Shown: piece after piece, positions 9,035-48,979 of the stretch | How the letters are laid out: each line of letters opens with the position of its first letter | Position numbering within the stretch: position 1 is the stretch's first letter | Origin: Chryseobacterium sediminis | GTDB taxonomy: Bacteria; Bacteroidota; Bacteroidia; Flavobacteriales; Weeksellaceae | Reading direction: 5' to 3' | Length of the DNA stretch: 64,000 nucleotides | NCBI RefSeq assembly: GCF_008386505.1 | Contig: NZ_VUNZ01000003.1 | Span: forward strand, 496,001 to 560,000 | The notes under the pieces: generated by a model | What the model was told of the DNA's origin: nothing | What the model saw: the letters and a program-made list of their open reading frames with translations, nothing else | Databases searched by the model: none | Program-made: the position numbers and the translations under genes

Positions 9035-9231
9035 TTGTTTTTTATGAATGCCAAATTGTAATTAATAATTTAGTTACGAAAATTTAATATATATTAGTGG
9101 TAATGGTATAGTTATGACGTATTTAATGTTATATGGTTTCGGTTTCGGGATCCGGGATTTTAATCTAATCGGTTTATAAGTGTTTGATATTGAAAAATAT
9201 AATTAAATCTAGTGGCTCTTACCTCACCCTG
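9035..9231. other. Intergenic space with left arm of a heptad array
   Basis: This is AT-rich non-coding sequence. At 9135-9158 it contains a GC-rich patch, GGTTTCGGTTTCGGGATC and following bases, that repeats with a period of 6-7 bp. It is roughly the opposite-strand counterpart of the array at 9232-9294. No convincing ORF was seen. Confidence 0.5.
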
Positions 9232-9294
9232 TATCTCGCATCTCGTAACTCGTATCCCGCACCTCGTATCCCGCATCCCCTAACTCGCATCCCG
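9232..9294. repeat. Heptad tandem array, nine units in register
   Basis: Nine consecutive 7-bp units occupy exactly 63 bp: TATCTCG, CATCTCG, TAACTCG, TATCCCG, CACCTCG, TATCCCG, CATCCCC, TAACTCG, CATCCCG. The consensus is YAYCYCG. The units vary but the period never slips. The array ends 2 bp before the stop codon of the minus-strand zinc-ribbon gene, so it lies in that gene's 3' untranslated region. Confidence 0.9.
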
Positions 9295-9296
9295 CA

Positions 9297-10560: not shown

Positions 10561-11728
10561 TGGAGGTTTAGATACTTCCTACTGTGCCAAATATCTTAGT
10601 GAAACACTAGGATATGATGTGTATGCAGTCACTGTAAATACCGGAGGTTTTTCAAAAGAAGAAGAAAAAGAATTGGAGAGAAAAGCTTTAAATCTTGGAG
10701 TGAAAGAATACAGGTGCGTAGACGCTCAGGAAGATTACTATAATTCATGTGTGAAGTATTTGATTTTTGGAAATGTACTAAAAAATAATACCTATCCTCT
10801 TTCTGTAAGTGCTGAGCGTACTATTCAGGCGCAGGAAATTGCAAAATATGCGATTGAGGTAGAGGCGGATGCTATTGCTCATGGAAGTACAGGAGCTGGA
10901 AATGATCAGGTTCGATTTGATTTGATTTTCCAGGTAATGTGTCCGAATATTGAAATCATTACGCCTATCCGTGATATGGCTTTGTCTCGTGAAGAAGAAA
11001 TTGAGTTTTTGAAAGGCCACGGTTACGAAATGGAATTCCATAAAGCACAATATTCAGTGAATAAAGGACTTTGGGGAACTTCGGTAGGAGGAAAGGAAAC
11101 CTTGACTTCAAGAAACTATCTGCCGGAAGAAGCTTTTCCATCACAGATTAAAGAAAATCAGCCCTCAGAACTGGAAATCGAGTTTAAAAATGGAGAAGTG
11201 ATAGGAGTGAATGGAGAAAGTTTTGAACATTCTGTGTATGCGATTCAGAAAATAGAAGAATTGGCTTCAGCTTACGGAATTGGCCGTGATATCCATGTTG
11301 GAGATACCATTGTTGGAATTAAAGGACGAGTGGGATTTGAAGCCGCTGCAGCATCAGTGATCATCAAGGCACATCATTTATTAGAAAAACATACGCTTTC
11401 AAAATATCAGCAAATGATGAAGTCTCAGTTATCCGATTGGTATGGGAACTGGCTTCATGAGGCACTTTTCTTAGATCCTGTAATGAGAAATATAGAATCT
11501 TTCCTGACAGATTCTCAAAAAACAGTGAGCGGAAAAGTATTCGTAACGCTTCATCCTTACAGATTTATTTTAAACGGAATTGAATCTGATCATGACCTGA
11601 TGTCTGATAAATTCGGAAGTTATGGAGAGGCAAACAGAGCGTGGACAGGAGATGATGTGAAAGGATATACAAAAATTGTAAGCAATTCTTTAAATATATA
11701 CCACCAGATTAACCAAAATATCAATTAG
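10532..11728 (+). CDS. argG: Argininosuccinate synthase
   Basis: This 398-residue enzyme joins citrulline and aspartate with ATP to form argininosuccinate. The pyrophosphatase-type ATP loop is LAFSGGLDTSYCAKYL near the N-terminus. TGAGNDQVRFDLIF and ELASAYGIGRD correspond to substrate-binding regions. The length is typical. The ATG at 10532 lies inside the end of the upstream GNAT gene, and the protein begins directly with the ATP-loop strand (MKKKVILAFSGG), so no later start fits. argC follows after 51 bp. Confidence 0.95.
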   Translation: MKKKVILAFSGGLDTSYCAKYLSETLGYDVYAVTVNTGGFSKEEEKELERKALNLGVKEYRCVDAQEDYYNSCVKYLIFGNVLKNNTYPLSVSAERTIQAQEIAKYAIEVEADAIAHGSTGAGNDQVRFDLIFQVMCPNIEIITPIRDMALSREEEIEFLKGHGYEMEFHKAQYSVNKGLWGTSVGGKETLTSRNYLPEEAFPSQIKENQPSELEIEFKNGEVIGVNGESFEHSVYAIQKIEELASAYGIGRDIHVGDTIVGIKGRVGFEAAAASVIIKAHHLLEKHTLSKYQQMMKSQLSDWYGNWLHEALFLDPVMRNIESFLTDSQKTVSGKVFVTLHPYRFILNGIESDHDLMSDKFGSYGEANRAWTGDDVKGYTKIVSNSLNIYHQINQNIN

Positions 11729-11779
11729 TTCCGAAGGGACGATTAATGCAAGACGGAATAGAATTCTGTCAGAATCAAA

Positions 11780-12745
11780 ATGAAGAAAACAGTAGGAATA
11801 ATTGGTGCTAACGGTTATACAGGAAGTGAACTGGTACGCTTATTGGCTTTTCATCCCCATGTGACATTGAGTTTTTTATATAGTCGTTCAAATTCGGGAA
11901 CGCGAATTTCAGATTTGTACCCGGATTTAACGACGGTTTGTGAAATGGTTTTGACAGATAAACCAGAAGACGTAGATATTCTTTTTCTGTGTCTTCCCCA
12001 TAAAGAAAGTCAAAACTGGTTAACTCAAAATCTTGTAAAAGATGAAACGCTGGTGATTGATCTCGGAAACGATTTCCGTTTAGAAGGAAACTTTGGAAAC
12101 AGAAATTTTATCTACGGATTACCTGAAATCAATAAAAAACAACTGGAAGGAGCAAAGAGTATTGCCAATCCCGGATGTTTTGCTACGGCTATTCAATTGG
12201 CTTTAATGCCTTTAGCGGAAAAAAAAGTATTAAATGAAGTTTTTACTACAGGGATTACAGGTTCTACCGGAGCCGGACAGTCTTTGCAGGCAACAACTCA
12301 TTTTACCTGGAGAAATGATAATGTTTCAGCATATAAAACTTTAACGCATCAGCATGTGGATGAGATTTTACAACAGTTGATATCATTTAATAATAAAGAA
12401 GTAAACCTGAATTTTGTTCCATGGAGAGGAGATTTTGCAAGAGGAATTTTTACAAGTTCCACGATGAAGACGGATTTGGATTTGGAGGAAATAGAACAAT
12501 TATATCAGGATTTTTATGCGGAGGAGCCTTTCGTTACGGTAAGTAGGAAGGCAGTTGATTTAAAGCAGGTTGTCAATACCAATCGCTGTGTGATTCAGAT
12601 CGAAAAGAGTGGAAATGTTGTCGTTATTCACTCAGCGATTGACAATTTGTTAAAAGGAGCTTCAGGACAGGCAGTTCAGAATATGAATCTGGCGATGAAC
12701 TGGGAAGAAAATGCAGGATTGAATTTAAAGCCAATAGCATTCTAA
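11780..12745 (+). CDS. argC: N-acyl-gamma-glutamyl-phosphate reductase
   Basis: This 321-residue protein has an N-terminal Rossmann motif (GIIGANGYTGSELVRLL) and the catalytic cysteine C133 in ANPGCFATAIQLAL. It reduces N-acylglutamyl phosphate to the semialdehyde with NADPH. The stretch TGITGSTGAGQSLQATTHFTWR matches the short type of ArgC found in this phylum. It lies third in the arginine operon. The acyl group carried by its substrate (acetyl or succinyl) is not determined by visible residues. Confidence 0.93.
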   Translation: MKKTVGIIGANGYTGSELVRLLAFHPHVTLSFLYSRSNSGTRISDLYPDLTTVCEMVLTDKPEDVDILFLCLPHKESQNWLTQNLVKDETLVIDLGNDFRLEGNFGNRNFIYGLPEINKKQLEGAKSIANPGCFATAIQLALMPLAEKKVLNEVFTTGITGSTGAGQSLQATTHFTWRNDNVSAYKTLTHQHVDEILQQLISFNNKEVNLNFVPWRGDFARGIFTSSTMKTDLDLEEIEQLYQDFYAEEPFVTVSRKAVDLKQVVNTNRCVIQIEKSGNVVVIHSAIDNLLKGASGQAVQNMNLAMNWEENAGLNLKPIAF

Positions 12746-12759
12746 TTTATTAATAAGGA

Positions 12760-12850
12760 GAAGGTTGTAGATGATAGGTTGCAGTAGTGTGAAGAATAAC
12801 TTTAGATCTGCAGGCTTTCAACAATCAACCATCAAACTAACAACAAGCAA
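12760..12850. repeat. Opposed heptad arrays between argC and argD
   Basis: The left arm (12760-12787) reads GAAGGTT GTAGATG ATAGGTT GCAGTAG. The right arm (12819-12850) reads CAACAAT CAACCAT CAAACTA and continues in weaker register. The arms are roughly complementary in reverse, so the spacer forms an imperfect long inverted repeat built of 7-bp units. It fills most of the 110-bp gap inside the operon. Confidence 0.65.
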
Positions 12851-12855
12851 CAAAA

Positions 12856-13995
12856 ATGAATTTATTCAACGTATATCCATTATTCAATATAAATCCGGTA
12901 AAAGCTCAGGGATCATTTCTTTGGGATGACAAAGGAGAAAAATATCTTGATTTCTACGGAGGTCATGCCGTAATTTCTATTGGGCATAATCATCCGCATT
13001 ATCAGAATAAGCTAAAAGATCAGCTGGAAAAAATATCTTTTTATTCCAATTCCGTTCAGAACGAATTACAGACTGAACTGGCAGAAAAACTTGGAAAACT
13101 TTCAGGATATGAAGATTATAATCTGTTCTTATGTAATTCAGGAGCTGAAGCTAATGAAAATGCATTAAAACTGGCTTCTTTTCATAATGGGAAAAGCAAA
13201 GTACTGTATTTTTCGGGATCTTTTCATGGAAGAACTTCTGCGGCGGTTTCAGTGACTGATAATCCAAAAATTGTGGCTCCGGTTAACTTTTCAGAAAGAT
13301 TCATCAAATCAGAATGGAATGATGTAGAACAACTAGAAGAGACTTTTGAAAAATTTGGAAATGAAATTTCTTCGGTTATTATCGAAGGGATTCAGGGAGT
13401 AGGCGGAATTATGATTCCTACACCGGAATTTTTATCTAAAATTAAAGAGCTATGTGAAAAATATGATGCTGTTCTTATTTTGGATGAAGTACAATCCGGA
13501 TATGGAAGAAGCGGATATTTCTTTGCCCATCAGGAATTCGGAGTTGAAGCAGACATTATTACAACTGCAAAAGGAATGGGGAACGGATTTCCTGTTGGAG
13601 GAGTTTTGATCCATCCTAAATTCCAGGCGAGCAATGGTTTGCTGGGAACTACATTCGGAGGGAATCATCTGGCTTGTGTCGCTTCAATTGCTGTTCTGGA
13701 TGTCATGAAAGATGAAAGTCTTATCGAAAATGCCCAGGAAATGGGTGAGTATATTGAAAATGAAATTAAAGATTTACCACATATTAAATCCATCCGAAGG
13801 AAAGGGTTGATGATCGGAATAGAACTCGACAGAGACTGTTCAGAAATAAGGAAAAGCTTATTGTTCGATCATCATATTTTCACAGGAAACTCTAATGATA
13901 AAACAGTGTTAAGGATTCTTCCGGCACTGAATATCAAAAAAGAGGAAACAGATCTTTTCATCAATGCTTTGAAAGTGGTATTGGGGAAGGTTTAA
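12856..13995 (+). CDS. argD: N-acylornithine aminotransferase
   Basis: This 379-residue class III PLP aminotransferase converts the N-acylglutamate semialdehyde to N-acylornithine using glutamate. It shows LDFYGGHAVISIGHNHP at the N-terminus, the cofactor motif LCNSGAEANENALKLA, LILDEVQSGYGRSG, and the Schiff-base lysine K239 in TTAKGMGNGFPVGG. The length is slightly below the usual ~400. The position between argC and the carbamoyltransferase gives the assignment. Succinylornithine would be the amino product if the pathway is succinylated. Confidence 0.92.
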   Translation: MNLFNVYPLFNINPVKAQGSFLWDDKGEKYLDFYGGHAVISIGHNHPHYQNKLKDQLEKISFYSNSVQNELQTELAEKLGKLSGYEDYNLFLCNSGAEANENALKLASFHNGKSKVLYFSGSFHGRTSAAVSVTDNPKIVAPVNFSERFIKSEWNDVEQLEETFEKFGNEISSVIIEGIQGVGGIMIPTPEFLSKIKELCEKYDAVLILDEVQSGYGRSGYFFAHQEFGVEADIITTAKGMGNGFPVGGVLIHPKFQASNGLLGTTFGGNHLACVASIAVLDVMKDESLIENAQEMGEYIENEIKDLPHIKSIRRKGLMIGIELDRDCSEIRKSLLFDHHIFTGNSNDKTVLRILPALNIKKEETDLFINALKVVLGKV

Positions 13996-14050
13996 ACTGC
14001 AAAAGGCTAAAATTATAAAAAGGTTAAAAGCTTAGAATATTACACAATGT

Positions 14051-14128
14051 TTGTCATTCTGAATGGGACAAAGTGAAATGAAGAATCTGTAAAATAATGT
14101 AGAGATTCTTCCTTCGTCAGAATGACAA
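14051..14128. repeat. Dispersed palindromic repeat, GTCATTCTGA family, copy 1
   Basis: The ends TTGTCATTCTGA and TCAGAATGACAA are perfect 12-bp inverted repeats. The interior reads GAAGAATCTG and GAGATTCTTCCTTCG. Related elements are at 21986-22062 and 50871-50930. It lies in the 260-bp space between argD and the carbamoyltransferase gene; no other feature was found there. Confidence 0.8.
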
Positions 14129-14255
14129 AACAACCGTCAATTGCTGAATGAAATGCCTTTGCGAACGAAAAAATGGTATTAGTGAAAAACATTGTTCCCT
14201 TGCGTTAAGAAGCCTAATTAATGTGTAAACAAAATCTTTAAAATCAATTTTAAAA

Positions 14256-15212
14256 ATGAAAAAATTTACCTCTGTAAGTGATGTAGAAAACTTACAGGAA
14301 ATCATAAAAAAAGCTTTACAAATAAAAGCAGATCCCCTTACTGAAACAGAAAAAGGAAAGGGAAAAACAATAGGACTTGTATTTTTAAATTCAAGTTTGA
14401 GAACCCGTCTGAGCAGTCAGATTGCAGCTCAAAATTTAGGGTTGAATGTTTTGACATTAAATGCAGCACAGGAAGCCTGGAATCTTGAATTTGCTGACGG
14501 AGCTATCATGAACGGAGATACCGTAGAACATATCAAAGATGCCATTGAAGTTTTAAATCAATATTGTGATATCATTGCTGTACGTTGTTTTGCAGGGATG
14601 AAGAGCAAGGAAGATGATGTGAACGAAAGCATTTTAAGCCAGTTTGAAAAACATGCAAAAGTTCCTGTCATTTCATTGGAATCTGCAACCCGCCATCCGT
14701 TGCAAAGTCTGGCGGACTGTATTACCATTACAGAAAACTGGAAAAAAGATCATAAACCAAAAGTGGTATTGACCTGGGCTCCCCACATCAAACCTATTGC
14801 ACATGCTGTTGGAAACTCTTTCGCAGAGTGGATGCAGGAAATGGATGTAGAGTTGGTAATTGCTAATCCTGAAGGCTATGATTTGGATAAAAAATTCACA
14901 AAAGATGTGAAAGTCGTTCATGATCAGGACGAAGCTTTAAAAGATGCTGATTTTATTTATGTAAAAAATTGGTCCTCGTTTGATGACTACGCTGCCATGC
15001 CTGAAGTGAAAGGAGACTGGATGCTGACGAATGAAAAACTGGCAGATACAAATGATGCAAAAGTAATGCACTGCCTTCCGGTTCGTCGTAATGTAGAGCT
15101 GAGTGATGAGGTAATGGATGGAGAAAATTCTATCATCTATCAGCAGGCAAAGAACCGAATCTTCTCTGCGCAGGCTGTGTTCAGTGAGATTTTAGATGAA
15201 TTAAAAGCCTGA
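14256..15212 (+). CDS. argF': N-acetyl-/N-succinylornithine carbamoyltransferase
   Basis: This 318-residue enzyme transfers a carbamoyl group from carbamoyl phosphate to an acylated ornithine, the unusual route of Bacteroidota and Xanthomonas. The carbamoyl-phosphate loop is FLNSSLRTRLSSQ (residues 43-55). The signature HCLPVRRNVELSD replaces the HCLP-R form of ordinary OTCases. By recalled alignment, residue 90 (MNGDTVEHI) is where proline marks the B. fragilis succinylornithine enzyme and glutamate marks the Xanthomonas acetylornithine enzyme. Here it is valine, so acyl specificity cannot be read. Carbamoyl phosphate would come from carAB about 6 kb downstream. Confidence 0.9.
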   Translation: MKKFTSVSDVENLQEIIKKALQIKADPLTETEKGKGKTIGLVFLNSSLRTRLSSQIAAQNLGLNVLTLNAAQEAWNLEFADGAIMNGDTVEHIKDAIEVLNQYCDIIAVRCFAGMKSKEDDVNESILSQFEKHAKVPVISLESATRHPLQSLADCITITENWKKDHKPKVVLTWAPHIKPIAHAVGNSFAEWMQEMDVELVIANPEGYDLDKKFTKDVKVVHDQDEALKDADFIYVKNWSSFDDYAAMPEVKGDWMLTNEKLADTNDAKVMHCLPVRRNVELSDEVMDGENSIIYQQAKNRIFSAQAVFSEILDELKA

Positions 15213-15216
15213 AGTG

Positions 15217-15249
15217 ATCCTTGTCAAGGTTTTAAACCTTGACAAGGAT
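15217..15249. repeat. Palindromic dispersed repeat, copy 2
   Basis: A perfect palindrome with arms ATCCTTGTCAAGGTTT and AAACCTTGACAAGGAT starts 4 bp after the stop codon of the carbamoyltransferase gene. It matches the element at 2364-2400 in nearly every base. In an operon this hairpin could protect the upstream mRNA or attenuate argB. The following bases (AGAAAAGAG) are not a terminator U-run. Confidence 0.8.
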
Positions 15250-15281
15250 AGAAAAGAGCAAGTATCCCAAAATGTTTACAA

Positions 15282-16076
15282 ATGAAAGAAAAGTTATACA
15301 TCATAAAAATTGGCGGAGCTTTAATTGATGATGAGGAATTGTTAGCCCAATTCTTAGAACAGTTTTCTGAAATTCAGGAAAAGAAGATCCTTGTACACGG
15401 TGGAGGCAAATTGGCAACAACGCTGGCTGATAAACTGGGCATTGAACAGAAAATGATCAACGGAAGGAGGATTACGGATAAAGAGACATTGGATATTGTA
15501 ACGATGGTGTATGCAGGGGGAATCAATAAAAATATTGTTGAAAAACTGCAACAGAAAAAATGTAATGCCATAGGGTTTTCCGGAGCAGACGGAAACTTAA
15601 TTAAAGCTAAAAAAAGAGAACACCCTGAAATCGATTTTGGATTTGTAGGGGATATCACTAAGAAAAGTGTGAATAGGAAGCTGGTTTCAAAATTGATCAA
15701 ACTGGATCTTGTTCCTGTGTTTTCAGCAATTACCCATGATAGAAAAGGAAATCTTTTCAATACCAATGCTGATACCATTGCTTCTGTGATAGCACAGGCC
15801 CTGTCAGAGAAATATGAAGTTGAATTGCTGTATTGTTTTGATAAAGAAGGTGTTTTGGAAGATGTTAACGATCCGGAATCGGTGATTAAAAGTGTCACTG
15901 AGGAAGATTTTACGGTATTGAAAGAAGAAGGAAAACTTCATAAAGGGATTTTGCCCAAACTTGAAAATGCTCTTGGAGCGATAAAAAATAATGTAGATAA
16001 AGTGTTTCTGATCAAAGAAACAGAACTGAAAAACCATATAGAAAATCATCATGCAGGAACTGAAATCTGTTTATAA
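15282..16076 (+). CDS. argB: N-acylglutamate kinase
   Basis: This 264-residue amino-acid kinase phosphorylates N-acetyl- or N-succinylglutamate. The glycine-rich motifs IKIGGALIDD at the N-terminus and LVHGGGKLATTLAD near residue 40 bind phosphates. NTNADTIASVIAQAL lies in the C-terminal half. There is no long N-terminal helix of the kind seen in arginine-inhibited hexameric ArgB, so feedback inhibition may be absent. The end overlaps the argE start by 26 bp in another frame. Confidence 0.93.
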   Translation: MKEKLYIIKIGGALIDDEELLAQFLEQFSEIQEKKILVHGGGKLATTLADKLGIEQKMINGRRITDKETLDIVTMVYAGGINKNIVEKLQQKKCNAIGFSGADGNLIKAKKREHPEIDFGFVGDITKKSVNRKLVSKLIKLDLVPVFSAITHDRKGNLFNTNADTIASVIAQALSEKYEVELLYCFDKEGVLEDVNDPESVIKSVTEEDFTVLKEEGKLHKGILPKLENALGAIKNNVDKVFLIKETELKNHIENHHAGTEICL

Positions 16077-17133
16077 TAAAGAAGAGCTATTGAATAATGC
16101 AGTCGGATTACTTAAAAATTTGATTGAAATTCCTTCATTCAGCAAAGATGAATTCAATACATCGGTAGAAATTGAAGACTTTTTCAAAAAACACCAGATT
16201 CCTACCAAACGTTTTAAGAATAACATCTGGGCGGTGAATAAACATTTCGATGTATTTAAACCTTCCGTTTTATTGAATACGCATCATGATACGGTAAAAC
16301 CGAACAAAGCATATACCCTTGATCCGTTTATTCCTATTGAAAAAGACGGCAAACTGTTCGGGTTGGGAAGCAATGATGCAGGAGCTTCTTTGGTTTCTAT
16401 GGCGCAGGTTTTTTTACATTTTTATGATAAAGAAGATTTAAAATATAATTTAGTTATTGCTTTGACGGCAGAGGAGGAGATTTCAGGATTTGATGGAATC
16501 GAAGCCTTATTTCCGCAGCTACCCAATGTAGAACTCGCCATTGTAGGAGAACCCACGCAGATGAATCTGGCGATTGCAGAAAAAGGACTTCTTGTGATTG
16601 ATGGAGAAATGAAAGGTACTCCTTCTCATGCCGCTCATCCTAATGATGATAACTCAATTGTAAAATGTATGCAGGATCTGCAGAAGATTTTAGCTTTTAA
16701 ATTTCCAAAGGTTTCAGAATATCTGGGTGAGGTTAAAGTTACCTTATCAGGAATTCACGCAGGAGTACAGCATAACGTTGTTCCGGAGTCTTGTAATTTC
16801 ACACTGGATGTAAGGGTTACAGATGAATATTCCAATCAGGAAGCGTTTGAAATCATTCAGTCGCAGATGGAATCAACACTCACGGCAAGATCTTTCAGGC
16901 TGAATTCTTCAAAAATCGAGATGGATCATCCATTTGTAAAAGCAGGAATTGAAATCGGAAGGACAACTTATGGATCTCCAACCTCTTCAGATCAGGCGAT
17001 TATTCCATGTACATCCGTGAAAATGGGTCCTGGAGACAGTAGGCGCTCCCATACTGCAGATGAATTTATCTATATCCATGAAATAGAAGAAGGAATAGAA
17101 ATCTACATCAGAATTTTAGAAAAAGTGTTATAA
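16051..17133 (+). CDS. argE: M20 metallohydrolase, N-acetylcitrulline/acylornithine deacylase
   Basis: This 360-residue M20-family peptidase-like amidohydrolase removes the acyl group late in the pathway. The metal site is LNTHHDTVKP, followed by GLGSNDAGASLVSM and the catalytic pair TAEEEISGFDG. The dimerisation domain is residues ~180-290 (KGTPSHAAHPNDDN). In organisms with an acylornithine carbamoyltransferase the substrate is the acylated citrulline, not acylornithine. The ATG at 16051 lies inside argB, and the protein then enters the family N-terminus without a long extension. Confidence 0.9.
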   Translation: MQELKSVYNKEELLNNAVGLLKNLIEIPSFSKDEFNTSVEIEDFFKKHQIPTKRFKNNIWAVNKHFDVFKPSVLLNTHHDTVKPNKAYTLDPFIPIEKDGKLFGLGSNDAGASLVSMAQVFLHFYDKEDLKYNLVIALTAEEEISGFDGIEALFPQLPNVELAIVGEPTQMNLAIAEKGLLVIDGEMKGTPSHAAHPNDDNSIVKCMQDLQKILAFKFPKVSEYLGEVKVTLSGIHAGVQHNVVPESCNFTLDVRVTDEYSNQEAFEIIQSQMESTLTARSFRLNSSKIEMDHPFVKAGIEIGRTTYGSPTSSDQAIIPCTSVKMGPGDSRRSHTADEFIYIHEIEEGIEIYIRILEKVL

Positions 17134-17134
17134 A

Positions 17135-17217
17135 GAAAGGAAGAATGAAGTGGGAAGATGGAAGTTATTATAGTTTGTAATTCACTTCCAGCCTCCAGCT
17201 TCGGGCTTCCAGCTCAA
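17135..17217. repeat. Opposed heptad arrays between argE and argH
   Basis: The left arm has GAAAGGA AGAATGA AGTGGGA AGATGGA (17135-17162). The right arm has CACTTCC AGCCTCC AGCTTCG GGCTTCC AGCTCAA (17183-17217). Every unit is exactly 7 bp. The arms are imperfect reverse complements separated by 20 AT-rich bases, so RNA or single-stranded DNA could fold into one long stem. The rest of the 347-bp space up to argH holds only a possible short ORF at 17394. Confidence 0.85.
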
Positions 17218-17393
17218 TATATGTTTTGACTCAGTCCGGCAGGCACGAAGTTTAGTTTTTAATAAGATTTATGCAAAAAAGAAAATTAGAAATGAAAGCT
17301 TCACATAAGGAAATGTTTTTTTATAGTTAATAGTAATAAGGATTGCCTTGCCGGGCATGTCAAAGCCAACAAATATTTTAAATCAATTTTATC

Positions 17394-17456
17394 ATGACAT
17401 CACTACCAACGAATTTTTCTGGTAATACAACAGGTAGAAGTGGTGATTGCATATGA
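17394..17456 (+). CDS. Possible 20-residue peptide upstream of argH
   Basis: A short ORF begins MTSLPTNFSGNTT, continues GRSGDCI and stops at 17454-17456, 24 bp before the argH start. Its Ser/Gly/Thr-rich composition is unlike random translation of this AT-rich DNA. It has one arginine codon, so a classical arginine attenuator is unlikely, and no terminator hairpin was found between it and argH. It may be a leader peptide or a remnant. Confidence 0.4.
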   Translation: MTSLPTNFSGNTTGRSGDCI

Positions 17457-17480
17457 TTTAAAAAAAATAAACAATTACAT

Positions 17481-18785
17481 ATGAAAAAAATATGGCAGAA
17501 GGATGACCTTGCCACCAATATATTAGTCAATAATTTTACCGTAGGGAAAGATCTTGACTTTGACGAGCGTTTGGCGAAATATGATGTCAAAGGTTCTATG
17601 GCGCATTGCAAAATGTTAGCAGAAACTGGGATTATTTCTCAGGAAGAATCAGAGCAGATGTTATCTGTTTTAAATGTTATTTTAGAAAAAATTGAAGACG
17701 GCAGTTTTGAAATTGATAAAGATGCTGAGGATATCCATTCTCAGGTAGAAGCTATTCTCATTGAAGAATTAGGAGATACAGGAAAAAAAATTCATACAGC
17801 AAGATCAAGAAATGATCAGGTTTTACTGGATATCAAATTATATTTATTGGATGAGATCCGTGAGATCACAGCCCTTACCGATGAGTTTTTCCAGATTCTG
17901 ATTCAGCTGGCGGATCAGCATAAAAATGTATTGCTTCCGGGATATACCCATTTGCAGATAGCAATGCCTTCCTCATTCGGATTGTGGTTCGGTGCTTATG
18001 CAGAAGCGCTTTTGGATGATGTGGAAATGCTGTTTTCAGTGAAAAATATTATTAATAAAAACCCATTGGGATCAGCTGCAGGGTATGGTTCTTCGTTTCC
18101 GATTAACCGTGAGAGTACGACCTATAACTTAGGATTCCAGTCGATGAATTATAACTCGGTGTACGCTCAGATGACTCGTGGAAAATCAGAAAAGATGCTG
18201 GCGATGGCAATGGCAACTTTAGCGGGAACGCTTGGGAAATTTGCTTATGACGTATGTTTGTATTTGAACCAAAACTTTGATTTTATCAGCTTTCCGAAAG
18301 AGTTTACCACAGGAAGCAGTATTATGCCTCATAAAAAGAATCCGGATATCTTTGAACTTGTTCGTGCACGATGCAACAGAATTCAGTCACTTCCGAATGA
18401 ACTTATTTTACTGACAAATAATCTGCCTTCGGGATATCACAGAGATGTACAGCTGACCAAAGAAATTCTTTTCCCTGCCATTGATTCCCTGAAAGAATGT
18501 TTGGAAATCCTAAGCTATACTTTACCGAACATTAAAGTAAAAGACGGGATTCTGGAAGATGAAAAATACAAATACCTTTTCAGTGTAGAAAAGATCAATG
18601 AAGAAGTAAAAAGCGGAAGTTCATTCCGTGATGCTTATGTGAAAATAGGGCAGGAGATTGAAAACAATGTATTTGAATTTGAACCAGGAAACCTTGAACA
18701 TACCCATCAGGGGAGTATCGGAAATCTTTGTCTTGATAAAATAGAATATCAGTTCAATAAACTGAAAAATAAATTATTGGGTTAG
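17481..18785 (+). CDS. argH: Argininosuccinate lyase
   Basis: This 434-residue enzyme of the aspartase/fumarase superfamily splits argininosuccinate into arginine and fumarate. The family signature is TTGSSIMPHKKNPDIFELVRARC near residue 280. EDIHSQVEAIL and TARSRNDQVLLDIKLYL are the other two conserved regions. The length is slightly below the usual ~460. It is the last arg gene here, separated from argE by 347 bp of structured DNA, so it may have its own promoter or be expressed differently from the rest. Confidence 0.94.
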   Translation: MKKIWQKDDLATNILVNNFTVGKDLDFDERLAKYDVKGSMAHCKMLAETGIISQEESEQMLSVLNVILEKIEDGSFEIDKDAEDIHSQVEAILIEELGDTGKKIHTARSRNDQVLLDIKLYLLDEIREITALTDEFFQILIQLADQHKNVLLPGYTHLQIAMPSSFGLWFGAYAEALLDDVEMLFSVKNIINKNPLGSAAGYGSSFPINRESTTYNLGFQSMNYNSVYAQMTRGKSEKMLAMAMATLAGTLGKFAYDVCLYLNQNFDFISFPKEFTTGSSIMPHKKNPDIFELVRARCNRIQSLPNELILLTNNLPSGYHRDVQLTKEILFPAIDSLKECLEILSYTLPNIKVKDGILEDEKYKYLFSVEKINEEVKSGSSFRDAYVKIGQEIENNVFEFEPGNLEHTHQGSIGNLCLDKIEYQFNKLKNKLLG

Positions 18786-18924
18786 AATCTAAGCCATTAA
18801 GGTCATTAAAAACTTAAGCAAAAATCAGTGGAATTTCTAAATTATTTTAGACTGCTGCCTTTTCGTTGTGAAGCCTTAATCTTATAAATCTTATCTGCTT
18901 AAGTGATCTTAATGGTTAGATTTT
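18786..18924. repeat. Long imperfect inverted repeat after argH
   Basis: The left arm starts AATCTAAGCCATTAAGGTCA and includes CTTAAGCA. The right arm runs TGCTTAAG, TGATCTTAATGG, TTAGATTTT. The arms pair over about 30 bases with small bulges. The space 18786-19207 (422 bp) has no gene: this element fills its first third and a second repeat family begins at 18999. Confidence 0.7.
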
Positions 18925-18998
18925 GCTCCGCTCTTTGAATTTGATGATTGCTTTAATACTGACTGTGGTTGGAAATTGAGATTAAATATGTAGGTCGA

Positions 18999-19110
18999 AA
19001 TTTTATCGGAGATAAAATCTTTGCGCCTTACAGCATAGAGTTTTCAATTTTTTGCGTCTTTGCGTTTTTCTAAATTAAATTTGTTGGTAAGCGCAAAGGC
19101 GCAAAGAATA
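18999..19110. repeat. ATTTTATC/CGCAAAG repeat family, copy 1
   Basis: AATTTTATCGGAGATAAAATCTTTG (25 bp, 18999-19023) recurs exactly at 50101-50125. It contains the palindrome ATTTTATC-GGA-GATAAAAT. It is followed by TTTGCGTCTTTGCG and, on the other side, GCGCAAAGGCGCAAAG at 19094-19109, which are inverted arms. Similar arms bracket 31151-31295. Confidence 0.75.
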
Positions 19111-19207
19111 AAACAAAAATGTATCTGGATTTTAAGGCGCCAGAAAATCCTTGATTTTCAGCAAACGTAAATCTAAAATCAAATTTAATGGTTTAAAAAT
19201 AGAAGGA

Positions 19208-19669
19208 TTATTCTAGATCAATTTTAAACTTAGTGGATTTTTTAACCTCATGAAGCACGATGGAGCTGTGGTATTGCCCGATATTAGGAATGTTTGAGAT
19301 CACATTCACTGCAAATTCATTATACGAATTGATATCTTTAGCAATGATCTTCAACATATAGTCATACTCTCCGGAAAGACTGATGATTTCCTGTACTTCG
19401 TCATATTTTCCAATGTGATTCTCAAAGGTTTCCAATACTTTCTTGGATTGTTCCTTAAGACGTACATTACAGTAGACTACAATATTCAAGCCCAGTTTTT
19501 CACGGTTTAAAAGTCCTACATATTTCTGAATGATCCCATGTTTCTCCAACTGTTTGATTCGTTCATACGTAGGAGTAAAGGTAAGACCAATTTTTTCGGA
19601 AATTTCCTTAACCGATAATGTAGAGTCTTCCTGAATAATGCTGAGAATCATTTTGTCTTTTAAATCCAT
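19208..19669 (-). CDS. Lrp/AsnC family regulator
   Basis: This 153-residue protein has an N-terminal HTH (residues ~1-50: STLSVKEISEKIGLTFTPTYERIKQLEKHGII) and a C-terminal RAM-type ligand-binding domain with a conserved VQEIISLSGEYDYMLKI stretch. Such proteins form octamers that bind amino acids and regulate amino-acid genes. It lies between argH and the divergent pyrB leader, so it is a candidate regulator of either pathway. The effector is not readable. Confidence 0.9.
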   Translation of the reverse strand: MDLKDKMILSIIQEDSTLSVKEISEKIGLTFTPTYERIKQLEKHGIIQKYVGLLNREKLGLNIVVYCNVRLKEQSKKVLETFENHIGKYDEVQEIISLSGEYDYMLKIIAKDINSYNEFAVNVISNIPNIGQYHSSIVLHEVKKSTKFKIDLE

Positions 19670-19752
19670 AAAAAAAATTGAGTTGTAACAAAAATATTAA
19701 TTTTAAATGAGAATAAGGAAATACTGAGGTTTTTAATTTATTTTAAACTTTG

Positions 19753-19785
19753 TTTTTGTAGGTTCATAAAATTGTTGTATCTTTG
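19753..19785 (+). promoter_or_regulatory. Promoter of the pyrB-carAB leader
   Basis: TTTTTG at 19753-19758 and TATCTTTG at 19778-19785 are spaced 19 bp, a perfect Bacteroidota promoter. Transcription should start around 19790-19793. That coincides with the ATG of the leader peptide at 19792, so the leader message may be nearly or fully leaderless. Confidence 0.8.
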
Positions 19786-19791
19786 CACCTA

Positions 19792-19863
19792 ATGAATAAA
19801 AAAGCATTTATATCATTAGATTTACCGGGCGAAAGCGCCCTTTACGATATTTATTGTTATTAG
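19792..19863 (+). CDS. pyr operon leader peptide (candidate)
   Basis: This 23-codon ORF starts MNKKAFISLDL and ends YDIYCY followed by TAG. The stop codon (19861-19863) overlaps the first bases of the terminator stem at 19862. A ribosome that reaches it would therefore cover the 5' arm. The last codons are strongly U-rich (CTT TAC GAT ATT TAT TGT TAT). This is the geometry of the enteric pyrBI leader, with an unrelated peptide sequence. Translation has not been shown. Confidence 0.7.
   Translation: MNKKAFISLDLPGESALYDIYCY
19827..19840 (+). promoter_or_regulatory. Pause-type hairpin in the pyr leader
   Basis: GGGCG-AAAG-CGCCC forms a compact 5-bp GC stem with a tetraloop. It is followed at once by a U-rich tract (TTTACGATATTTATTGTTATTAG). 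In enteric pyrBI leaders a similar hairpin before U-rich sequence pauses RNA polymerase when UTP is low. It lies within the leader peptide reading frame. Confidence 0.65.
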
Positions 19864-19889
19864 CGAAGATTGTTGTCTTCGCTTTTTTT
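19862..19889 (+). terminator. Intrinsic terminator (attenuator) ahead of pyrB
   Basis: AGCGAAGA (19862-19869) pairs with TCTTCGCT (19876-19883) around the loop TTGTTG. With the last stem base it is followed by seven T residues (19883-19889). The pyrB ATG is only 20 bp further on, so this terminator sits between promoter and gene and should block expression unless it is disrupted. Confidence 0.85.
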
Positions 19890-19908
19890 ATGCCCAAAAA
19901 TAAGAATT

Positions 19909-20799
19909 ATGTTTACGATTACAGAACTAAGCACCGAGAGAATCAACAGTATACTGACAGAAGCACTGGCTTTTGCGAACGGTAAAACTGCCAAAATTGA
20001 AGGAGAAGTTTTTTGCTCAAACCTTTTCTTCGAAGACAGTACAAGAACGAAAACAAGTTTTGATCTTGCAGAAAGAAAACTGGGACTTCAGGTAGTTCCG
20101 TTTGATGCATCACACAGTTCGGTAAACAAAGGGGAAAGCCTTTATGATACAGTAAAGACCATTGAAAGTATAGGAGTAAACCTTGTGGTGATCCGCGATA
20201 AAAAAGACAGATACTTTGAGGAACTGAAAAATATTAAGATTCCTGTGATTAACGGAGGAGACGGAACAGGAAACCATCCTTCACAATGTATGCTGGATCT
20301 GATGACCATCTATCAGGAATTCGGAAAGTTTGAAGGATTAAAAGTAGGAATTGTAGGAGATGTAAAACACAGTCGTGTTGCTAATTCAAATGCAGAGGCA
20401 TTAAGAAGATTAGGCGCTAAAGTATACTTCTCAGGACCTGAGCAGTGGTTTGACGAAGGAGCTTTAATCAACGGAACTTATATGTCAATGGATGAGCTGA
20501 TCGGGGAAGTGGATGTTCTGATGTTATTAAGAATCCAGCATGAAAGACACGATGCTGCAATGAGTTTCACGGCTTCAGAATATCATAAAAGATATGGACT
20601 GACCAAAGAAAGAGAGAAAGCCATGAAAAAAGAAGCAATCATTATGCACCCTGCGCCTATCAACAGAGGAGTGGAAATAGATTCAGATCTTGTAGAATGC
20701 GAAAGATCAAGAATCTTTAAACAAATGGAAAACGGTGTTTTCGCCAGAATGGCCATTTTGAAAGAAGCGTTGGAAGAAAAAGGATTTACCTTTAAATAA
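19909..20799 (+). CDS. pyrB: Aspartate carbamoyltransferase catalytic chain
   Basis: From the ATG at 19909 ([13 protein letters not shown]) the enzyme has 296 residues. A longer frame opens at a TTG in the terminator loop and is rejected as a start. PyrB makes carbamoyl-aspartate, the committed step of UMP synthesis. Visible motifs are the carbamoyl-phosphate loop [18 protein letters not shown], then [27 protein letters not shown] and [14 protein letters not shown]. No pyrI regulatory chain is adjacent, so allosteric CTP control is probably replaced by the transcriptional attenuator upstream. carA follows after 104 bp. Confidence 0.95.
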
Positions 20800-20803
20800 G
20801 AAA

Positions 20804-20838
20804 AAAGGTAAAAGAGCCAAGTTAAAAGTAAGAAGTTA
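20804..20838. repeat. Short heptad array between pyrB and carA
   Basis: Five 7-bp units in register: AAAGGTA, AAAGAGC, CAAGTTA, AAAGTAA, GAAGTTA (consensus NAAGNNA). They start 4 bp after the pyrB stop codon. No clear opposing arm was found, only a loosely similar AACTTATTAAAG further right. Confidence 0.6.
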
Positions 20839-20903
20839 GTGAACCTTGTAAGAGGTAACTTATTAAAGAGATAGAATAAAATAATAAGAGATAATAGTTT
20901 AAA

Positions 20904-21977
20904 ATGAAGAAAAAATTAATACTGGAGTCCGGTGAAGTGTTTCATGGAGAAGGTTTCGGAGCAGAATTGGAAACTGCAGGGGAGGTAGTTTTCAATACCG
21001 GAATGACAGGATATCAGGAATTGATTTCTGACCCGTCGTATTGCGGTCAGATAGTTTGTATGACCTATCCGCTTATCGGAAATTATGGTATTAACCGTGA
21101 TGATTATGAAAGTATTGAGCCGGCAATCAAAGGGCTTATCGTAAAAGAACTTTGCGATCTTCCTTCTAATTTCCGTACTCAGATTACTTTAGATGAATTA
21201 TTTAAAAAGAAAAACCTTTCAGGAATTTCAGGAATCGACACAAGAAGACTGACAAGAATTCTTCGTAACCATGGAGTTGTAAAAGGTAAGATTGTAAACG
21301 CTGATGCAGATGAAACTGCAGTAGCTTCTGAGCTGAAATCAACAAATTTCCCAACCAACCAGGTAGAAGAGGTTTCAACAAAAACACCTTATGCTAATCC
21401 GAACAGAGGTTTCAAGGTAGTATTGGTAGACTTCGGTGCAAAACTGGGGATTATCAGAGAGTTATCTCAAAGAAACTGTGATATCATTGTGGTTTCTCAG
21501 GATACTACAGCAGAAGAAATTCTGTTGATGAATCCGGACGGTATCATGTTGTCAAACGGTCCTGGTGACCCGGAAGATGTGCCACATGCTTTAGATATGA
21601 TCAGAGGATTATTAGGAAAAGTTCCAATCTTCGGAATCTGTTTAGGACACCAGTTGATCGGCCTTGCTTGTGGAGCGAAAACTTTCAAACTGAAATTCGG
21701 ACACAGAGGAGGAAACCACCCGGTGTTAGACCTTGAGAAAAATACGGTAGCCATTACTTCTCAGAACCATGGGTATGCTGTGGATCAGGAAAGCTTAAAA
21801 GGAACAGACCTTATCGAAACGCATATCGCTTTGAATGACAGAACAAACGAAGGATTAAAACACAAAATCCACCCTTGTTTCTCAGTTCAATACCACCCGG
21901 AAGCAAGCCCTGGTCCTGAAGATGCAAACTATCTGTTTGATGAGTTTATTCAAATGATGGAGGACTTTAAAAAATAA
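20904..21977 (+). CDS. carA: Carbamoyl-phosphate synthase small subunit
   Basis: This 357-residue glutaminase subunit supplies ammonia from glutamine to CarB. The N-terminal CPSase domain has GEVVFNTGMTGYQELISDPSY. The C-terminal class I amidotransferase shows the nucleophile cysteine in FGICLGHQLIGLACG and the His/Glu pair in QYHPEASPGPEDANYLF. The product feeds both PyrB here and the acylornithine carbamoyltransferase in the arg cluster. carB follows after 167 bp that contain a dispersed repeat. Confidence 0.95.
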   Translation: MKKKLILESGEVFHGEGFGAELETAGEVVFNTGMTGYQELISDPSYCGQIVCMTYPLIGNYGINRDDYESIEPAIKGLIVKELCDLPSNFRTQITLDELFKKKNLSGISGIDTRRLTRILRNHGVVKGKIVNADADETAVASELKSTNFPTNQVEEVSTKTPYANPNRGFKVVLVDFGAKLGIIRELSQRNCDIIVVSQDTTAEEILLMNPDGIMLSNGPGDPEDVPHALDMIRGLLGKVPIFGICLGHQLIGLACGAKTFKLKFGHRGGNHPVLDLEKNTVAITSQNHGYAVDQESLKGTDLIETHIALNDRTNEGLKHKIHPCFSVQYHPEASPGPEDANYLFDEFIQMMEDFKK

Positions 21978-21985
21978 TACGGCTT

Positions 21986-22062
21986 TCTGTCATTCAGAAC
22001 AAAGCGATAGCGGAGTGAAGAATCTCAACAAAGTATGTTTAGATTCCTATGGAATGACAAAG
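21986..22062. repeat. Dispersed palindromic repeat, GTCATTCTGA family, copy 2
   Basis: TTCTGTCATTCAGAAC on the left and GGAATGACAAAG on the right flank GAAGAATCTCAAC and AGATTCCTAT, matching the layout of 14051-14128 with a degenerate left half. It sits between carA and carB, so it is transcribed within the operon. Confidence 0.65.
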
Positions 22063-22091
22063 TGTGTTAATTCAATCTAAATAAAGCATTA

Positions 22092-22134
22092 TGCTAAAAG
22101 TCTAAGATTTATGTATCTAACTTCTAGTATCTAA
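22092..22134. repeat. Short heptad stretch before carB
   Basis: TATCTAA CTTCTAG TATCTAA (22114-22134) are three 7-bp units in register. They are preceded by GCTAAAAGTCTAAGATTTATG, which looks like a degenerate opposing arm (TAGACTTTTAGC on the other strand). It ends 11 bp before the carB start. Confidence 0.5.
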
Positions 22135-22144
22135 AAAAAGAAAA

Positions 22145-25100
22145 ATGGCAAAACGTACAGATATAAAAACAATTTTAGTAATCGGTTCAGGACCTATCAT
22201 CATTGGTCAGGCAGCTGAATTTGATTACGCAGGAACGCAGGCTTGCCTGTCTTTGAAAGAAGAAGGTTATAAGGTAATTTTGATCAATTCAAACCCTGCA
22301 ACCATCATGACGGATGTGGAAATCGCTGATAAAGTATATATTGAGCCGATTTCATTACAGTTTGTAAGCCACATCATCAGAAAAGAACGTCCGGATGCAT
22401 TATTACCTACATTGGGGGGGCAGACAGGACTGAACATGGCGGTAGAACTGGAAAAATCAGGAATTCTTGAAGAATGCAAAGTGGAAGTACTGGGAACAAA
22501 GCTTTCTGCCATCAACAGAGCAGAAGACAGAGATCTTTTCCGTGAATTGATGAGAGAGTTGAACGAGCCGGTACCGGAATCTGATATCGTTAACACGGTA
22601 GAAGGAGCATTAGCTTTCGCAGATGAAATCGGGTATCCAGTAATCGTTCGTCCTGCCTTTACGATGGGAGGAACAGGAGGAGGTATTGCATCCAACGAGG
22701 TAGAATTGAAAGAAATTGCCGAATTAGGATTAAAGCACAGCCCGGTTACACAATGTTTGATTGAAAAATCAATCGCCGGTTTCAAAGAAATTGAATACGA
22801 AGTAATGCGTGATGCAAACGACAACGCCATTGTGGTTTGTAACATGGAAAATATTGATCCGGTAGGAGTTCACACAGGAGACTCTATCGTAGTAGCACCT
22901 TCTCAGACCCTTTCAGACAGAGAATATCAGTTACTGAGAAATGCTTCTTTAAAAATCATCAGAGCATTAGGTATCGAAGGAGGATGTAACGTACAGTTGG
23001 CATTAGATCCACATTCTTTTGAATATTATATCATTGAGGTAAATCCAAGAGTATCCCGTTCATCAGCTTTAGCAAGTAAAGCAACAGGATACCCGATTGC
23101 AAAGATCGCTGCAAAAATTGCGGTAGGATTAACGCTTGACGAAATCATGAACCCGGTAACAGGAAAAACATACGCATGTTTTGAGCCTGCTCTGGATTAT
23201 GTGGTAACAAAATTCCCAAGATTCCCATTCGATAAATTTGAAACTGCAGACAGAAGACTTTCCACTCAGATGAAAGCAACTGGTGAAGTAATGGCAATCG
23301 GTAGAAATCTTGAAGAATCTTTACAGAAAGCGATCCGTTCACTAGAAACAGGAATCAAACATTTAGGATTAAAAACAAAACAAGCTGAAGCACTTACTGC
23401 TGAGGAAATCGAAAGAAGAATCAGAGTTTGTGATGACGAGAGACTTTTCATCATCGGAGATGCTTTAAGAAGAGGATACGACTGGGAACAGATTGTAGAA
23501 TGGAGTAAAATTGATAAATTCTTCATCTGGAAACTGAAAAAACTGGTTGACTTTGAAAAAGTAATTGCTGCCAACAAATTCGATAAAGAAACATTAATTG
23601 AAGCGAAAAGATTAGGTTTCGCAGATATCAATATTGCGGTTCTTTGGGATGTAAAAGAACGTGAGGTTTTCAACTTCAGAAAAGAAAACGGAGTAATGCC
23701 GGTTTACAAAATGGTAGATACTTGTGCTGCTGAGTTTGAAAGTGAAACCCCTTATTTCTACGGAACTTACGAAGAAGAAAACGAAAGTGTTGTTTCAGAC
23801 AAAGAAAAAATTATCGTACTAGGTTCTGGGCCTATCAGAATCGGACAGGGAGTTGAGTTTGACTACGCTACCGTTCATTCAGTATGGGCAATCAAAGAAA
23901 TGGGTTACGAAGCGATTATCATCAACAACAACCCTGAGACTGTTTCTACAGACTTCTCAATCTCTGATAAATTATACTTCGAGCCGCTTACAGAAGAAGA
24001 TGTAATGAACATCATCGAGCTAGAAAAGCCTAAAGGAGTAGTGGTACAGTTCGGAGGACAGACTGCGATTAACCTTGCAGATAAATTAGCCTCTCACGGA
24101 GTACAGATCTTGGGAACTTCACTGGAAGATCTAGACAGAGCTGAAAACAGAGATAAATTTGAAAAAGCACTTCAGGAGCTGGGAATTCCTCAGCCAAAAG
24201 GAAGAACTTCAACTTCTAAGGAAGAAGCTATAAAAATTGCTAACGAAATCGGTTATCCGGTATTGGTACGTCCAAGTTACGTTCTTGGAGGTAGAGCAAT
24301 GGAAATTGTATACGCAGAAGCTGAACTGGCTTACTATATGGAGCATGCAGTAGAAGCGAGTCCTGAACACCCTGTTTTGGTTGACAAATACATGGTAGGA
24401 AAAGAAATTGAAGTTGATGCAATCTGTGACGGAGAAACTGTAGTGATTCCGGGAATTATGGAACACATCGAAAGAGCGGGAGTTCACTCCGGAGACTCTA
24501 TCGCGGTATATCCACCTCAGAATATTTCTCAAAGTGAAATTGACACTTTGGTAGACTATACACAAAGACTGGCAAAAGGATTAAATGTTATCGGATTAAT
24601 GAACATCCAATACGTTCTTTTTGAAGGAAATGTATATGTGATCGAAGTAAACCCTCGTTCTTCAAGAACAGTTCCTTTCTTATCTAAAATCACGGAAGTT
24701 CCAATGGCTAACCTTGCAACAAAGGCAATTTTAGGACAAAAACTAAAAGATTTAGGATACGAAAACGGATTGGTTCCAAACAAAGAAGGAGTATTTGTAA
24801 AAGTACCGGTATTCTCTTTCTCCAAACTAACGAAAGTTGACATCTCTTTAGGCCCTGAAATGAAGTCTACAGGAGAAGTTATGGGGAAAGATACAACCCT
24901 TGAGAAAGCACTTTATAAAGGATTGGTAGCAGCAGGAAGAAAAGTTCCTATGCACGGTTCTATCCTGTTTACGGTAGCAGATAAGCACAAAGATGAAGCA
25001 GCCGCTCTTGCAGCAAGATTCCATGAAGTAGGATTCAGAATCTGGGCTACAGAAGGTACAGCGAAATTCTTTGAAGATAAAGGAATTCCTTGCAAAATTG

Positions 25101-48684: not shown

Positions 48685-48851
48685 CGGGATGCGTGATGCG
48701 TGGTAATGAGTTTCGTGATTCGAGATAACGAGATGAGTTTGCGATACTTGATGTGGGAATGAAAATAAAATTTTTAATTTTCATATTAAACATCGACCCC
48801 TGTAACCCGAACCCCGAACCCCGCAACTCGAATCCCGAATCCAGAACCCAA
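48685..48851. repeat. Opposed heptad arrays after holA
   Basis: The left arm begins CGGGATG CGTGATG CGTGGTA and continues with CGTGATT CGAGATA and slipped units to about 48757. The right arm is seven units in strict register at 48803-48851: TAACCCG AACCCCG AACCCCG CAACTCG AATCCCG AATCCAG AACCCAA. The arms are G-rich and C-rich on the same strand, so they can pair. No gene lies in 48684-48979. Confidence 0.85.
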
Positions 48852-48979
48852 AAACAACTCCTATCGAAATTCAACATATCAGATATTGACAAGTATCATT
48901 AAAATAACTTTAAGGAGAAATTAAAAATTCCGAAATTAGCAGTCTTAATTCAAATTAAATCTTTTCGAACAAGTAAATT

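Follow-up and report, generated by a model that had tools for sequence, protein, structure and literature searches.

The heptad palindromes that lie between protein-coding genes in this stretch of DNA are probably gene-less (solo) relatives of intervening-sequence-type elements, residing outside rRNA. The stretch, referred to here as the window, comprises 64,000 nucleotides and corresponds to positions 496001-560000 of contig C6 in G000, a genome of 4.9 Mb. An earlier note on this DNA, made from the sequence alone, described spacers with opposed arms of 7-bp units and knew of no feature type to explain them. Gene content and the named relatives of the genome's IVP genes suggest a Chryseobacterium-like bacterium as the source. 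In outline, however, the elements built around a gene for the 23S rRNA-intervening sequence protein (IVP, or S23; Pfam PF05635) do so, the arms of both being alike in period, polarity and complementarity. Our assignment of the window palindromes to descent from IVP elements is made by analogy, perhaps with the exception of the single arm in front of carB.

We evaluated the periodicity of each spacer by its lag-7 self-match relative to 2000 dinucleotide shuffles. Significant values were obtained for argE-argH (17134-17480, p=0.0005), for the spacer 9016-9296 (p=0.0005), for argC-argD (12746-12855, p=0.0010) and for holA-trxB (48684-48979, p=0.0005), which bears out both the opposed heptad arms that the earlier note saw between argE and argH and the like build that it reported at 9135-9294, 12760-12850 and 48685-48851. 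At argE-argH, a single lag-7 segment (17137-17214) spans the two arms together with the loop; the register is thus unbroken, as had been claimed, and the arms are complementary. The left arm of holA-trxB does show slips of register, and only 48685-48726 scores there. The two arms described as single, at 20804-20838 and 22114-22134, could not be upheld on periodicity alone, as their spacers were not significant under dinucleotide shuffling (20800-20903, p=0.09; 21978-22144, p=0.23). Throughout the window palindromes, the G-rich arm comes first and the C-rich arm follows. RNA folding z-scores for the forward and reverse strands were -4.4/-4.6 at argE-argH, -3.6/-2.8 at holA-trxB and -3.2/-0.2 at argC-argD, and no folding excess was present at 9135-9294 (-0.8/-0.8). 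The positions of the arms are given in Table 1.

Table 1. Heptad arms and bounding genes in the window (window coordinates).
Feature	Position	Strand	Unit and basis
G-rich heptad arm, spacer between the 459-aa and 138-aa genes	9120..9158		lag-7 segment
C-rich heptad arm, 9016-9296 spacer	9231..9296		ATCTCGC/ATCCCGC units; lag-7 16.9, lag-14 23.2
Genes bounding the 9016-9296 spacer	459-aa, 7636-9015; 138-aa, 9297-9713	both -	
argC-argD G-rich heptad arm	12757..12790		GTTGNNN; by eye, without a scored segment of its own
argC-argD C-rich heptad arm	12818..12853		CAACNAT; ends at argD start; lag-7 scored
argE-argH G-rich (5') heptad arm	17135..17166		AAGNNGG; by eye and lag-7
argE-argH C-rich (3') heptad arm	17183..17214		YTCCAGC; complement of the left arm
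Weak single G-type arm, 3' of the aspartate carbamoyltransferase gene	20803..20839		p=0.09 alone
Single C-arm 5' of carB	22100..22133	+	alignment with IVP-element C-arms; lag-7 alone p=0.23
holA-trxB G-rich heptad arm, directly 3' of the holA stop	48685..48758		scored segment 48685-48726; remainder by eye, register slips
holA-trxB C-rich heptad arm, 5' of the conserved trxB leader	48797..48857		scored segment 48769-48857 takes in the loop

Regarding the flanking genes, argH, argC, holA and the genes for thioredoxin reductase, aspartate carbamoyltransferase and the carbamoyl-phosphate synthase small subunit scored above NCBIfam cut-offs; for argE and argD, the names that fit best, the scores stayed below the cut-offs, and the gene at 22145-25327 is presumably carB, judging from its place and size. 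Scanned against Rfam with gathering scores as thresholds, the window yielded one tRNA only. Segments were called with a codon-scored gene caller combined with a segment score; an earlier, stricter scan restricted to the window had flagged one of the four loci, a spurious ORF across the holA-trxB spacer being part of the cause. The gene caller misses the 138-aa gene at 9297-9713, and the spacer entered as 9016-9906 (-+) in the sample counts is really 9016-9296. The product of this gene, on the reverse strand and adjoining the arm at 9231-9296, matches the N-terminal zinc-binding part of IS1/IS1595-type transposases, and the gene occupies the same place in the syntenic windows of nine of ten relatives.

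The period-7 excess over shuffled controls, on whose presence across the genome the earlier note had staked its pattern, extends past the window: it is present in a 464-kb sample of the same genome (window included, 268 spacers), which represents part of the genome, and in ten relatives. Lag-7 segments in the 268 spacers numbered 76, 28, 16 and 4 at scores of at least 6, 8, 10 and 14, against 37.6, 7.0, 0.4 and 0.0 in shuffles, and the coding DNA of the sample, six times as long, held 62, 8, 4 and 0. At the same thresholds, lag 5 gave 42, 8, 2 and 0 segments; lag 8 (47, 14, 8 and 2; shuffles 37.2, 7.8, 2.2 and 0.2) and lag 11 (45, 16, 4 and 1; shuffles 29.6, 4.8, 1.6 and 0.2) were somewhat raised, as were lags 14 and 21, which are multiples of 7. 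The lag-7 count exceeded the shuffle mean in all 11 species sampled. Counted irrespective of IVP, the 64 heptad spacers comprise 52 that are stronger as G-first and seven that are stronger as C-first, compared with 131 and 96 among spacers without heptads, and three of the 64 adjoin an IVP gene or a fragment of one. Forty-two arrays were scored, some of them bracketing IVP genes (L059, L075, L078). Two other loci deserve mention. L045 (12339-12460), in the window's genome, holds an 8-bp array in which GAGTATTA occurs about eight times, with no IVP gene noted beside it; L050 (12728-13400) contains, by eye, a pair of short peptide ORFs that are nearly identical (MKNQKLKLALKNV..., with a GG motif) and look like a duplicated secreted-peptide precursor.

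The arms of solo palindromes are weakly complementary (median 7.0 vs 6.5, p 1e-4), a figure that may understate the match, the arms having been picked by GC skew, which is a crude guide. At holA-trxB, complementarity of the solo arms was 8.2 vs 6.0 (p 1e-3) in 26 spacers used out of 30 loci. An AG-centred unit core stands above chance in both kinds of arm: its information is 1.71 for IVP arms, with a null maximum of 1.29, and 1.66 for solo arms, with a null maximum of 1.27. The analysis kept distinct G-rich arms, namely 154 of 196 with period 7 and 46 of 51 with period 8. The solo and IVP cores look alike (AG.T), with a match that is not significant (r 0.43, p 0.22). The earlier statement that the palindromes have no sequence in common is right insofar as they are not copies of one sequence, but it overlooks the weak AG core that the arms share.

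The comparison of syntenic spacers in eleven members of the genus showed that many of those between tandem genes differ from species to species, both in how long they are and in what they contain; the divergent spacers at 9714-9906, 19670-19908 and 35854-35922 are constant in length and lack strong heptads. At holA-trxB, by reading of the forward-strand loci with a short spacer, the trxB side is conserved and the heptad unit and its number on the holA side differ in nearly all species, the heptads being absent in a few (e.g. L014, L025, L029). Several other repeats populate the same kind of spacers. A dispersed intergenic repeat, TTGTCATTCTGAA ... GAAGAATCTC ... GGAATGACA, lies at 21978-22144 and 13996-14255 of the window and in L054, L055 and L087, occupies the same spacers in several species, and has an exact 14-mer, TTGTCATTCTGAAT, in 3 of 319 loci. 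A third repeat type, approximately GCCCYGNAGGGGCGACCTGTTAATA ... CCATGGGTGAAACCC, is found at 20800-20903 and in the orthologous spacers of G020, G030, G025 and G009. Finally, a conserved element of about 200 nt (CGACYTAGGAAAATGGAGCGTTAAGAAAA ...) is present in the argC-argD spacer of G020, G002, G030, G010, G025 and G009 and in the argE-argH spacer of G009, so that in some species it fills a spacer where the window has heptads. It seems that several repeat families exchange spacers with one another.

The connection with IVP genes is most direct at carA-carB. The spacer of G002, G007 and G010 contains a heptad G-arm, a small gene and a complementary C-arm, and a profile scan of the G010 copy identified the gene as PF05635. 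G007 and G010 have an open frame of 117 aa, and the G002 copy is broken; G016 carries another PF05635 subfamily in this spacer, with flanks of period 8 rather than 7. The C-arm that the window has 5' of carB can be aligned with that of G002, G007 and G010 (score 31.5) and also with the carA-carB spacer of G009, which has no IVP gene (29.0). Because it aligns with the C-arm of an IVP element in the same spacer of relatives, this single arm is best read as the relic of such an element, a reading drawn from alignment. No IVP gene was found in any of the window spacers, nor at the holA-trxB loci; the window's genome has six PF05635 genes, all of them outside the window spacers, and a PF05635 match was obtained in 30 of the 39 genomes searched, this one included. 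All five IVP proteins scanned with the profile, none of them from the window, scored 74-135 bits against a cut-off of 33.8.

We then characterized the flanks of IVP genes at large, using 81 genes (of 84 distinct hits) from the order, which represent 21 sites and are not independent, and a wide set consisting of the best 80 of 578 confirmed relatives, drawn from Bacteroidota, Planctomycetota, Acidobacteria, Clostridia, Chloroflexi, Proteobacteria, candidate phyla and the archaeal Methanophagales. A lag-7 score of at least 7 occurred within 150 nt upstream and downstream of 70% and 65% of the 81 order genes, compared with 10% and 9% of 327 ordinary genes, the latter taken from the window's genome only. 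Both flanks scored at least 6 at 48 of the 81 genes versus 6 of the 327, and around these IVP genes lags 5, 6 and 9 showed no rise comparable to that of lag 7. By site, the mean lag-7 score was at least 7 at 19 of 21, and period 8 was the stronger at three. Among the best 80 of the wide set, lag 7 marked 48 upstream and 38 downstream flanks, lag 8 marked 17 and 11, and lag 5 one of each. Cognate arms complement each other far better than non-cognate ones, with a median of 17 vs 10 in the order set (p 6e-31) and of 18 vs 9 among the best 80 of 578 (p 3e-27). When RNA was folded for 155 of the 161 elements of both sets, at least 12 arm-arm pairs formed in 119, compared with 61 of the 155 when arms were swapped and with 14 of 50 ordinary genes from the window's genome.

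The polarity observed in the window recurs in these elements (the 81 loci plus the best 80 of 578). Upstream, 122 of 138 arms have more G than C, eight have more C than G and eight are equal; downstream, the counts are 20, 106 and three of 129 arms. Median arm lengths are 5.2 and 5.4 units, values that depend on the detection threshold. The gene points the same way as both neighbours, which share its direction, at 116 of 132 loci, with 14 mixed and two opposed to both (29 of the 161 loci, with one flank uncalled, were set aside); for ordinary genes of the window's genome, 178 of 317 are co-directional with both neighbours and 26 with neither. Not every element conforms: L237 and L297 begin with the C-rich arm, both arms of L228 are G-rich, and about one third of IVP flanks have no strong period. 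The L228 element, from Faecalibacter, displays a very strong period 7 on both flanks in direct rather than inverted arrangement. Taken as a set, and at the level of sequence, these data show that arms bracket IVP genes across many phyla and that cognate arms match each other.

Two sites of the window's genome were followed across species. At Site A (L097), out of 22 genomes, five have a full-length IVP gene (L168, L169, L171, L172, L176; that of L169 is an open frame of 117 aa), one has a broken gene (L178), one retains the 3' part of the gene with the C-arm only (L177), 14 have no IVP and one is unreadable. Nine of the 14 without the gene have a lag-7 score of at least 9, among them L189, which has a long spacer of other sequence. 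The C-arm unit AACTAGC of this site occurs, by reading, seven times in the window's genome, six in G010, three in G016 and twice each in G020 and G007. Site B (L098), covered in 13 genomes, has an intact IVP gene in the window's genome and broken ones in G020 and G016; five genomes lack the gene and have 59-233 nt between its neighbours, four of them scoring 7-10 at lag 7, and in five more distant genomes the flanking genes are 0-11 nt apart. By locus, the broken genes include those of L178, L191 and L192. Sequence comparison thus shows that unit numbers differ between species and that the same spacers hold an intact, a broken or no IVP gene.

The unit length is clustered on the protein tree. 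On a tree of IVP proteins (158 of 161, reduced to 111 by removal of near-copies; 99 with a clear period were used and 12 dropped), the assignment to period 7 or 8 required 12 changes versus a shuffled mean of 19.3, and none of 500 shuffles was as low, on a tree with few columns and many weak forks. One clade of eight proteins, all with period 8, joins Lambdaproteobacteria, KSB1, Nitrospirae and several Flavobacteriia (SH-aLRT 90). A nearest-neighbour test gave a weaker signal than the tree, with agreement in 74 of 99 cases against a shuffled mean of 65.6 and a maximum of 81 in 1000 shuffles. Our interpretation of this clustering is that the gene moves together with its arms and that the length of the unit is determined by some factor linked to the protein. 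The earlier note had inferred a common generating process or a structure-based role from the shared period and symmetry: a single architecture is indeed present, but the clustering of unit length on the IVP tree argues for an element family as well, and not for a mutational process alone.

At a given site, codon comparison shows the IVP gene to be under purifying selection. Same-site pairs in which neither gene is broken and dS falls between 0.05 and 1.5 have a median dN/dS of 0.08 (150 pairs, not independent), which suggests that the protein is kept while present. IVP proteins at least 80% identical share their site in 130 of 131 pairs, and below 80% other sites appear and then prevail; the elements therefore appear to be seldom mobile, and these 131 pairs gave no sign of recent movement. 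A structural model of the IVP of L221 (named Chryseobacterium; pLDDT 96) matches PDB entries 2gsc and 2rld, each with five chains. The title of the paper on 2gsc reportedly names five four-helix bundles. The model also resembles Avd alone (4dwl; TM 0.80, E 0.01, 9% identity) and Avd in the DGR reverse-transcriptase complex (8ub7 and others; TM about 0.8, E about 0.01-0.06), and the bAvd profile PF22296 was hit by one of five IVP proteins, below its cut-off. As modelled, IVP would be a four-helix-bundle protein with a fold like that of Avd, a likeness that is weak by E-value at a TM of 0.8. Homology between PF05635 and Avd is noted in a DGR review (PMC10053308). The fold is the point of likeness; the DGR itself differs in that the window's genome has no match to a PF00078 reverse transcriptase.

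The closest known system is the intervening sequence (IVS) of 23S rRNA. According to a study of Coxiella (PMC4990558), the IVS is a selfish 23S rRNA element with an S23p ORF and terminal inverted repeats; three or two tandem heptameric repeats, variable among strains, are located just before the S23p start, an RNase III site lies at the first heptameric repeat, and the function and origin of rRNA IVSs are termed unclear. The IVSs of Coxiella and Leptospira resemble our elements in their small size, complementary termini, sense S23p ORF (present in some IVSs and absent from the window spacers) and decayed ORFs, and that of Coxiella additionally in the variable-number heptameric repeats just 5' of the ORF. 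They differ in lying within 23S rRNA (helix 9, 25 or 45), whereas the window loci lie between protein genes; moreover, the elements described here have tandem-unit arrays as both arms, and their excision without religation by RNase III, an enzyme encoded in the window's genome (PF14622), is putative. Complementary termini are found in the IVP elements as a set and, among the window solos, are clear at argE-argH and holA-trxB, with the fold signal absent at 9135-9294 and weak in the solo class. The anatomy described in the Coxiella study (PMC4990558) is similar, lies in rRNA and is reported for a single organism.

A second precedent consists of the TAACTGA heptamer arrays of Beggiatoaceae, cyanobacteria and Bacteroidetes, described in PMC4679880. 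Like the long SSRs of Mrazek et al., they are intergenic tandem heptamers, in one genome mostly just 5' of start codons, but they use one fixed heptamer, in contrast to the opposed complementary arms with a locus-specific unit found here; no link to IVP was found in the text consulted (PMC4679880). Within the reachable literature on heptad repeats, IVP, S23, IVS and Avd, most subscription papers being outside reach, we found no statement of tandem heptad arms as a general feature of IVP genes.

Under the preferred reading, a complete element would consist of an arm of about five 7-bp (or 8-bp) units, the IVP/S23 gene and a complementary arm, inserted mostly in sense orientation between co-directional, presumably co-transcribed genes. 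Beyond this anatomy, we infer a mechanism in which base pairing between the arms of the transcript presents the IVP message in a loop; the paired arms may be cut by RNase III, by analogy with rRNA IVSs. An IVP pentamer, as a relative of Avd, may bind the G-arm with approximately one unit per subunit, a proposal that we make because of the five-chain structures and the median arm lengths of 5.2 and 5.4 units, and that would explain the fixed spacing, the loose sequence and the G-first polarity. The model borrows from the trp RNA-binding attenuation protein TRAP, a ring protein whose evenly spaced NAG repeats are bound one per subunit. TRAP itself has an unrelated fold, is an 11-mer and uses another spacing. 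Units would be gained and lost through whole-unit slippage, and loss of the gene would leave solo palindromes such as those of the window.

Several observations run counter to the IVS reading, among them that the window spacers contain no IVP gene, that solo arms are weakly complementary, and that solo arrays are more numerous than IVP genes (the sample holds 13 array-bearing spacers, which extrapolates to about 138, versus six IVP genes in the genome). We regard as unlikely, though deserving of serious attention, an explanation in which the heptad palindromes are primary, arising by replication slippage and by hairpin template switching that homogenises the arms, with IVP genes later inserted or kept in the hairpins. 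The palindromes may precede the genes, since solo arrays are the commoner, the match of their core to that of IVP arms is not significant and the remaining families of the order show little heptad excess (6 vs 3.0 where genomes bear IVP genes and 2 vs 2.2 where they do not, samples too small to tell whether solo palindromes need IVP genes). Whole-unit changes in copy number, seen directly in the Site A C-arm, fit this account, as does Mrazek's proposal that 7 nt suits polymerase slippage, as cited in PMC4679880. Slippage alone, however, does not predict the G-first polarity (52 to 7 in heptad spacers, 122 to 8 in IVP arms), the clustering of the period on the IVP tree across phyla or the sense orientation.

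It is improbable that the palindromes serve between operons as bidirectional transcription terminators or as hairpins that stabilise mRNA, their period of 7 arising incidentally. Such a role would agree with the strong hairpins predicted at argE-argH and holA-trxB and with the location of 53 of 64 heptad spacers between tandem genes, but convergent spacers, which are neediest of terminators, are depleted (2 of 64 vs 87 of 506 others, p 0.002). With divergent spacers near background (7 of 64), these counts also led us to reject the idea that heptads are to be expected at every gene end. A terminator scan of 8900-22300 gave 11 hits versus 8.3 in shuffled sequence, one of which overlaps the palindromes (17203-17215, within the argE-argH C-arm), and no hit at holA-trxB; a T-run follows 7 of 23 C-arms, a count without a control set, and as a class the palindromes do not show the GC stem with an adjoining T-run that marks intrinsic terminators. 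Neither period 7 nor the link to IVP would be explained. Least credible are REP/BIME-like or retroelement-derived repeats spread in trans by a Y1 transposase or a reverse transcriptase: the repeats are intergenic and palindromic and the IVP fold is like that of the DGR protein Avd, but the copies have little sequence in common and the window's genome matches neither PF01797 (Y1_Tnp) nor PF00078 (RVT_1), for which 5 and 3 of 14 control genomes, respectively, have matches.

Returning to the reading of the palindromes as solo relatives of IVS-type elements, we advance a broader version tentatively, as possible rather than probable: IVP/S23 genes may constitute a domain-wide class of mRNA-embedded elements in which the arms serve as a molecular ruler, each subunit of an Avd-like pentamer engaging one unit of 7 or 8 nt as the protein wraps the 5' arm, clade and unit length co-evolve, gene-less arms are bound in trans, and the IVSs of 23S rRNA are rare members inserted in rRNA. 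To our knowledge, genes annotated as "four helix bundle protein" are common and have remained unexplained. If the anatomy holds (G-arm, IVP gene, complementary C-arm and a unit length clustered on the tree), the matter becomes a direct question of binding. It would also offer a way to annotate many IVP genes as elements and an explanation for hypervariable spacers that resemble simple repeats, and it would tie an unexplained heptad pattern to the decades-old puzzle of inserts in rRNA.
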